Positions 18,829 to 20,417 of a stretch of DNA of 64,000 nucleotides are shown in pieces. Location of the stretch: the NCBI GenBank assembly GCA_026127925.1, contig JAJSLM010000005.1:1-64000 (forward strand), in the 5' to 3' direction. This DNA comes from Thermoplasmatales archaeon. GTDB lineage: Archaea > Thermoplasmatota > Thermoplasmata > Thermoplasmatales > Thermoplasmataceae. The notes beneath the pieces are model-generated. The model was not told where the DNA came from. It saw only the letters and a list, made by a program, of their open reading frames with translations, and searched no databases. Position numbers and translations under genes: made by a program. Each line of letters opens with the position of its first letter. Positions within the stretch are counted from its first letter, which is position 1.

Positions 18829-19488
18829 ATGCCTATAAAAGGTATGTCCGGAAATATAACTGTAATTTTAAACAACAAATTGACAAATGAAGATGTCACT
18901 GCAATTATAATGATAGAGGGTAGTTTTAAGGCGGATTACCAAATCCCTACTTTATTAGTTCCAGGATTAGGGACGCCACTAAATATTCAAGCTGGTTTTC
19001 GGAAAATAGGTGAAATTGAGAACAACACTGTGACGGTTGGGAACATTACATATAGATCGGGTGAAAAAGGTGTCATTCAATTTACCGTACGGAAGGGAGA
19101 CGATCCGAAGGAATTTGAAAACGCAGTAAACATGATAAATGAATTAATAGCGAAAGCGGGATTGAAAGAAAGAGTCTTTGCTTATGAGTTATACTTAAAT
19201 TTGGTGGAAGAAGGAAATCAACTAAGAGAAAAACGAATTAAACTACCTAAATTAGAGACAATGAGCGATCCGAAATTGTTTGGTTTAAGAATATTCGACG
19301 CTATATTATCTGAGGATGATATTCGATCTCAACCTTGGAAACAGATCAACATCGAACCTTTAATTCAGGACCCTACCAAAATCTCAATAACCATGACTTA
19401 TAGAATGATATACTTTGAGAATAGTATAATATCCAAAGCGTTTTTAGATGCAGAAAAACTAATGAACTATCTTAAGGAGGTAGCATAA
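18829..19488 (+). CDS. Cassette gene 1: hypothetical protein (219 aa)
   Basis: I do not recognise this protein. Residues 1-105 look beta-rich (alternating hydrophobics such as NITVILNN, TAIIMIEG, NTVTVGNITY), then comes a helix with FENAVNMINELIAKAG, and a C-terminal part with a conserved-looking PWKQINIEPL and a final helix AFLDAEKLMNYLKEVA. No signal peptide or membrane segment. Sampled 60-nt blocks are about 30-32 % GC against about 55 % in a block of the preceding AOR gene, so the cassette looks acquired. Its stop codon directly touches the ATG of the next gene (TAAATG). Confidence 0.7.
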   Translation: MPIKGMSGNITVILNNKLTNEDVTAIIMIEGSFKADYQIPTLLVPGLGTPLNIQAGFRKIGEIENNTVTVGNITYRSGEKGVIQFTVRKGDDPKEFENAVNMINELIAKAGLKERVFAYELYLNLVEEGNQLREKRIKLPKLETMSDPKLFGLRIFDAILSEDDIRSQPWKQINIEPLIQDPTKISITMTYRMIYFENSIISKAFLDAEKLMNYLKEVA

Positions 19489-19995
19489 ATGGTTTTTGGA
19501 TCTGTATACATTGCAGATTCAACGTCAACAACTGCTTTGGACACAAGCTTTGATCTGAATGGGTCAAACATAAGTAATTCTAGGAATGATTTCTATCCAG
19601 AATTATCGGGCCAGTGGACAAAATATGAACAACTCAACAATTTCTTGAAGTCAAATGTAGCTATAAACATCATCAGAAAGTATACTGGAGAGGCTACGCT
19701 GAGCCGGGTAATCGAAGAGTTCGCGGCAAATGACTTACAATCCGAATCTGGATCTGAGATGCTTTTAGAGCTAGCTCAATTACTAGATTACCTCGGGCAA
19801 AACTATGGTTATTACGGTGGACCGTACTTAGACTATGTCCTTGATGAAGATACCAATGATCTGCTTTTTTTTAGATTGATTTTTGAAAGAGCCAATCGGA
19901 AAGAGTGGAAAGAAATCGAGAGTGATCTAATCAGTAAACAGGTACTGACTAAAGGACTCCTAGCGGTATTTTGTTTGCAAGGTTTTCAAGGATGA
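19489..19995 (+). CDS. Cassette gene 2: hypothetical acidic protein (168 aa)
   Basis: Unrecognised. The first 35 residues are Ser/Asn/Thr-rich and probably flexible. The rest is helical and acidic, with GEATLSRVIEEFAAND, MLLELAQLLDYLGQNYGYYG and YVLDEDTNDLLFFRLIFERA. No membrane segments or known catalytic motif. It is translationally linked on both sides: ATG right after the stop of gene 1, and its TGA overlaps the ATG of gene 3 (ATGA). An acidic helical partner encoded just before a HEPN-like protein could be its antitoxin or nucleic-acid targeting partner; this is inference from position. Confidence 0.7.
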   Translation: MVFGSVYIADSTSTTALDTSFDLNGSNISNSRNDFYPELSGQWTKYEQLNNFLKSNVAINIIRKYTGEATLSRVIEEFAANDLQSESGSEMLLELAQLLDYLGQNYGYYGGPYLDYVLDEDTNDLLFFRLIFERANRKEWKEIESDLISKQVLTKGLLAVFCLQGFQG

Positions 19996-20417
19996 ACAGA
20001 TTAGATCCAACACAGTTCATAACGAAATTATCACGGAACTTAGATTCCATGACAGAAGTTGAAATGAGAAGAACAGTCAGCTCTTTGTACTTTTCTTTAT
20101 TTAATTATTGGTCTGAGATTAAATTATGTAAACTAGGGAAAAAAGGAAGTGGAAAACACAATGACAGATTTCCACTTAAGGAATTCAGCAGAGATATTAC
20201 AATAAATAATTTGAGCATGGAATATCAAATTCTCTTTGAACTCAGGGTTCTTTGTGATCACTACACACTTAATCCAAATAAAATTGAAATAACAGATCCA
20301 GAAGTAAGAAGAATGATCAACATGCCCAGTATCCAGATAATATTGAACCGTGTATCTCTTGAAGACGCCGTTGACTATGCTAAGAGCATCAACAAATGGC
20401 TTAAATCTCTACTATAG
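19992..20417 (+). CDS. Cassette gene 3: HEPN-like (UPF0332-type) protein
   Basis: 141 residues, all helical. The N-terminal helix RRTVSSLYFSLFNYWSEI resembles the RRAVSRAYYAxFHA helix of UPF0332/HEPN proteins. The later ELRVLCDHYTLNP matches the position of the family's LRxxADY segment, with an R-X4-H spacing like that of HEPN ribonucleases. The last helix EDAVDYAKSINKWLKSLL fits the family end. The ATG at 19992 overlaps the previous stop (ATGA) and follows AAGG. HEPN domains are RNases or RNase-like modules of toxin-antitoxin and defence systems; activity is not proven. Confidence 0.6.
   Translation: MNRLDPTQFITKLSRNLDSMTEVEMRRTVSSLYFSLFNYWSEIKLCKLGKKGSGKHNDRFPLKEFSRDITINNLSMEYQILFELRVLCDHYTLNPNKIEITDPEVRRMINMPSIQIILNRVSLEDAVDYAKSINKWLKSLL

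Follow-up and report, generated by a model that had tools for sequence, protein, structure and literature searches.

Analysis of a 64,000-nucleotide stretch of DNA from a Thermoplasmatales archaeon (the window) revealed a cassette of three genes, termed G1, G2 and G3, which is fairly probably a horizontally moving toxin-antitoxin or abortive-infection module. In such a module G3 would act as the RNase and G2 as its neutraliser, with a regulatory or sensing role for G1. The operon, its conserved composition, the co-divergence of its genes, the presence or absence of the cassette at one site and the HEPN fold and motif of G3 were computed or predicted; we infer the RNase activity, the toxicity and the part played by each of G1 and G2. 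HEPN modules are already known. The partner set of G1 and G2 is absent from the libraries searched.

According to their ORF coordinates the three genes are co-directional, and they form one operon (Table 1). The TAAATG and ATGA junctions on which the original prediction had based this operon were both confirmed. A Shine-Dalgarno-like sequence precedes the start of G2, and the ATGA overlap would couple the translation of G2 and G3. The cassette was AT-rich, with a GC content of 35.6% compared to 45.4% in the AOR gene and a mean of 41.3% over the whole window, and about 2% of the equal-size stretches within the window were equally AT-rich. The contrast that had been predicted (∼31% against ∼55%) was thereby correct in direction and overstated in size. 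GC content was not even across strains either, lying below that of the flanks in eight of nine complete copies. No virus, prophage or defence genes were found beside the window copy, the neighbourhood of which was annotated in part.

Table 1. Positions of the cassette features in the window and of related loci on their own sequences. The junctions and the Shine-Dalgarno-like stretch were read from the sequence.
Feature	Location	Position	Strand	Description
G1	window	18829..19488	+	ORF, 219 aa; predicted alpha/beta protein of two lobes, tentatively TBP-like
G2	window	19489..19995	+	ORF, 168 aa; pI 4.4, strongly acidic
G3	window	19992..20417	+	ORF, 141 aa, ATG start; predicted divergent HEPN domain
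TAAATG junction	window	19486..19491	+	G1 stop abuts G2 start
Shine-Dalgarno-like AAGGAGGT	window	19474..19481	+	7 nt ahead of G2 start
ATGA overlap	window	19992..19995	+	G3 start within G2 stop
R-x4-H	window	20244..20261	+	predicted active site, G3 residues 85-90 RVLCDH; R, D and H invariant in 10/10
[DE]-x3-[KR] motif	window	20055..20081	+	G3 residues 22-30 EVEMRRTVS, including conserved R27 and S30
L075	contig C3: 121000-139000	7927-9522	-	G1' (228 aa), G2' (176 aa), PF05168 HEPN protein
L094	Thermus brockianus plasmid pTB1	1699-3390		TIGR04255 gene, small gene, unannotated HEPN gene
L076	genome G186, contig C70	5469-6896	-	G1' relative, 106-aa protein, PIN-domain protein
L039		7009-9729		G1 and short G2 ORF
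L042		11348-12061		interrupted G1 copy

Complete G1-G2-G3 cassettes were found in nine genomes of the same archaeal family, among them the 1.73-Mb genome of the window and that of its relative Ferroplasma acidarmanus Fer1. All nine have the identical gene order on a single strand, with overlapping or close-set genes; G2 and G3 overlap by 4 or 25 nt in seven of them. A short operon with abutting or overlapping genes and a patchy, mobile distribution is also a trait of type II toxin-antitoxin systems. Identity to the window proteins was about 20-30% in most cassettes and 46-50% in the closest. To obtain this set, G1 and G3 were searched in 300 genomes of the class, which yielded adjacent pairs in same-family relatives, and G2 was located afterwards between the two. 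The G3 profile gave matches in 11 of 77 family genomes, one of which (genome G276) was an ordinary HEPN protein. With the G1 profile, full-length matches among 390 genomes of the phylum were confined to the family. Four G3 relatives were furthermore scanned against 84,980 bacterial and archaeal species by short peptide patterns, which could miss more distant relatives; the six loci retrieved all belong to Thermoplasmata or Thermoplasmatota. G3 relatives were not found in viral contigs. Pairwise distances of G1, G2 and G3 were correlated (Mantel r 0.81-0.93), which fits one unit, yet vertical descent alone would give the same. Co-occurrence of the three genes in other genomes, which the original prediction had proposed as a check, was borne out by the conserved composition of the nine cassettes. 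The homologues kept their partners and were not core metabolic genes.

The genes flanking the cassette are mostly unrelated between copies, and none is common outside one genus. In Fer1 the flanks lie 2.3 kb apart with the cassette inside, and in a Ferroplasma that is ∼97% identical over those flanks they lie 113 bp apart. A target-site duplication was not visible by eye at this site. Decayed copies were observed as well. At locus L039 the short G2 ORF ends beside IS200/IS605 TnpA- and TnpB-like genes (transposase names assigned by eye), and this locus is probably a cassette broken by an insertion sequence. A truncated G2-G3 remnant is present at L069, and G1 is interrupted at L042 and L043. 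A patchy, mobile-like distribution was recovered in the unrelated flanks, the Ferroplasma pair and the decayed copies: the cassette is a mobile unit, present or absent at one Ferroplasma site.

In two species of one genus (L042 and L044) the same cassette site lies beside PdxA-like and MoeA-like genes. A stop interrupts G1 in one of these species, and its G2 and G3 remain open. In the same-genus genome G315 (85% complete), considered for an empty site, the lone matching contig, of 7 kb, matches the CoA-transferase-like gene only.

HEPN domains are all-helical, with an R-x4-6-H motif ending helix 3 and, in many families, a second motif E-x3-[KR] (PMC3710099). The predicted model of G3 was all-helical, and its R-x4-H motif closes the helix spanning residues 75-90. 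The R-X4-H spacing noted earlier in ELRVLCDH was recovered as an element invariant in ten of ten relatives, and the second motif, EVEMR at residues 22-26, was kept as [DE]-x3-[KR] in nine of nine full-length relatives. Eight columns were invariant across the ten relatives. They fall into two clusters, one in a long helix (R27, S30, Y33, N38) and one in the R-x4-H region (R85, D89, H90, P95). In HEPN proteins the motif R is typically, although not obligatorily, followed by a polar residue, in most cases N, D or H (PMC3710099). The window G3 departs from this expectation with an atypical V; N is found at this position in four of ten relatives and K in one.

The predicted fold of G3 was HEPN-like. 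Foldseek of the model against the PDB placed HEPN structures at ranks 1 to 7 (best 2hsb, probability 0.96), with weak E-values of 0.3 or worse. The UPF0332 part of the original assignment did not hold in a direct profile search: G3 had no match to PF05168/UPF0332 in Pfam at E≤10, and none of its relatives scored above the curated threshold. The HEPN part was sustained by more distant comparison. The protein of G276 that the G3 profile matched weakly belongs to the PF05168 HEPN proteins (E 1e-7) and served as a bridge to a set of five HEPN proteins, four of them above the Pfam threshold and the fifth carrying the HEPN name in its record. The G3 profile aligned to this set with an hhalign E of 6.5e-5. 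The five proteins scored 20.5-27.5 against the G3 profile, whereas all of 172 control ORFs scored ≤17.5. G3 thus resembles HEPN-T proteins (PF05168, UPF0332-type) in the all-helical fold, in the R-x4 motif ending the third long helix, in the [DE]-x3-[KR] of an earlier helix and in that PF05168-recognised proteins outscore all controls against its profile. It differs in being missed by the Pfam model and in having R-x4-H at the aligned site, which reads R-x4-Y in the five bridging proteins (by reading of the sequences). Judged by motif, predicted fold and distant profile comparison, G3 is a putative divergent HEPN domain, and it is probably an RNase. In one species pair G2 had a dN/dS of about 0.34 and G3 one of about 0.29, indicating purifying selection on both genes in this pair.

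Searches of G1, G2 and G3 against Pfam, NCBIfam, PADLOC and PHROGs gave no convincing match. The one PHROGs match, for G2 (E 0.11), was at chance level, and the PADLOC-DB models of known anti-phage defence gave zero matches for the three proteins. Their relatives yielded nothing convincing in Pfam and NCBIfam either, and sequence searches of the PDB with the G1, G2 and G3 profiles returned no credible match. For G1 and G2, which had been described as unlike anything known, no relative of known function was detectable in these four libraries or by hhalign against controls.

All nine cassettes encode a strongly acidic G2, with a pI of 4.1-4.7 and a net charge of -10 to -18; G3 was basic in eight of the nine. 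HEPN-MNT systems are an established case of a HEPN toxin whose gene comes after that of its neutraliser (PMC3710099), and G2 is probably the neutraliser of G3. The AlphaFold model of G1, of good confidence (pLDDT 81.8, pTM 0.81), consists of two alpha/beta lobes. By our own reading its strand and helix order is near that of a TBP lobe (b1-a1-b2-b3-b4-b5-a2), with helix a1 missing from lobe 2. Foldseek of this model against the PDB gave no match at E≤0.001 and no TBP within the 50 best matches. Against viral models, the first 13 matches repeatedly include proteins named as large subunits of early transcription factors; these VETF-l-like matches come from Lymphocystis disease virus and pithoviruses and have TM-scores of about 0.2-0.4. 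The vaccinia early transcription factor large subunit family bears a TBP-like domain (PMC12917281). A TBP-like fold of G1 is possible and serves as a tentative lead, and the protein may act as a regulator or sensor.

A second cassette of similar layout, G1'-G2'-HEPN (L075), is present on contig C3 of the same genome. Its G1' is 70% identical to the G1' of G276. Relatives of its HEPN protein are encoded on Gloeothece plasmids, as small protein plus HEPN, and on a Thermus brockianus plasmid, as TIGR04255 plus small protein plus HEPN. The middle protein of L075 is related to the bacterial middle proteins (hhalign E 1.7e-6). At L076 the gene of a G1' relative precedes those of a small protein and a PIN protein (PF01850, E 3e-11). 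The last gene of this sister kind of cassette can be HEPN or, in one case, PIN, which looks like an exchange of toxins. Genes for a Fic-domain protein and for a STAS-like DUF4325 protein lie near L075, and L076 is followed by a Dam-like methylase gene. The pTB1 operon adjoins a VapC gene and lies near cas6, and its HEPN gene is absent from the gene table. TIGR04255 genes also head short runs of closely spaced genes in other Thermoplasmata (L099-L101) and on bacterial plasmids (L102-L106); the second and third genes of these runs are very different.

No relationship of window G1 and G2 to their counterparts in these cassettes could be demonstrated. Window G1 had no NCBIfam match to TIGR04255 and did not align to it by hhalign above controls, and the window's own genome gave no TIGR04255 match. 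The alignments of G1 to G1' and of G2 to the middle proteins of L075 or the bacterial operons were not significant, controls scoring equally high. The pTB1 operon shares with the window cassette a gene order that runs from a large protein through a small middle one to HEPN, and both it and the Gloeothece pairs share overlapping genes and mobile replicons; the missing matches of window G1 and G2 set the window cassette apart. The likeness is therefore a parallel of architecture only.

Two further HEPN systems were compared. In HEPN-MNT (HepT-MntA) a small stand-alone HEPN protein is likewise encoded last, after its partner (PMC3710099). The window cassette has three genes rather than two and is without a nucleotidyltransferase gene: neither a Pfam match nor a conserved G[SG]...DxD motif was found in G1 or G2. 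RNase LS is restrained by RnlB, and some of its members have a fused TBP-like domain (PMC3710099). A partner restraining a HEPN RNase would be common to RnlAB and the cassette, likened here by description only, whereas the window HEPN is stand-alone and the part that may be TBP-like is encoded as a protein of its own. A tentative and rather doubtful extension is that the cassette represents a split RNase LS, with G1 as a stand-alone two-lobed TBP-like nucleic-acid sensor, G2 as acidic inhibitor and G3 as HEPN RNase. It would then fall within a broad archaeal and bacterial class composed of a large alpha/beta protein, a small protein and an exchangeable RNase, the last gene being HEPN or PIN.

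We favour the toxin-antitoxin or abortive-infection reading because nine cassettes of the same order have mostly unrelated flanks, because the cassette is present or absent in Ferroplasma and because copies adjacent to insertion sequences or decayed occur. The HEPN motif, fold and profile, the acidic G2 and mostly basic G3, the correlated distances, the purifying selection and the precedent of HEPN toxins (PMC3710099) point in the same direction. The V after the motif R, the weak Foldseek E-values of G3 and the lack of known-function relatives of G1 and G2 were counted against it, as were vertical descent as another source of the correlated distances and the lack of virus, prophage or defence genes in the partly annotated surroundings of the window copy. 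Mechanistically, free G3 would cut host or viral RNA via R-x4-H and growth would stop. The very acidic G2, translationally coupled to G3, would bind and mask the usually basic HEPN protein. G1, possibly by a TBP-like nucleic-acid-binding fold, would release the block on sensing a nucleic acid or protein that is foreign or abnormal; alternatively, it may regulate the operon.

The same components could instead form a defence module without addiction, in which a complex of G1 and G2 senses a virus component, the HEPN RNase is switched on only at infection and G2 by itself is no antitoxin. Three genes rather than two, the patchy distribution and turnover, a possible TBP-like nucleic-acid-binding partner and the frequency of HEPN domains in abortive infection systems (PMC3710099) agree with this explanation, which we nevertheless rate as unlikely: none of the three proteins is matched by a PADLOC model, and an acidic, G3-coupled G2 equally fits a plain antitoxin. 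The lack of G3 relatives in viral contigs weighs neither way. It is still less likely that the HEPN domain of G3 is a non-catalytic RNA-binding regulator and that the cassette controls the expression of a mobile element or a neighbouring gene. Some HEPN proteins are inactive and act as regulators (PMC3710099), the window G3 has V after the motif R and G1 may have a nucleic-acid-binding fold, but the motif keeps its R and H in ten of ten proteins that otherwise have only about 25-50% identity to window G3, which points to catalysis. An ordinary accessory operon of the adjoining molybdenum/AOR genes is very improbable. MoeA-like genes and AOR do precede the window cassette, and two genomes of one genus likewise have a MoeA-like gene nearby; other copies, however, lie among unrelated genes with no flanks in common outside one genus, and Fer1 differs from its near relative in exactly the cassette stretch. 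This role was rejected on the genomic context of the other copies.

No open-literature paper naming TIGR04255 was found; if the parallel to the TIGR04255 operons is true, it would suggest a role for this family. The three genes of the cassette each define a protein family missing from the searched libraries and are packed as one unit. For acid-loving archaea it offers a natural presence/absence pair in Ferroplasma, together with a testable prediction of a toxin and its neutraliser.
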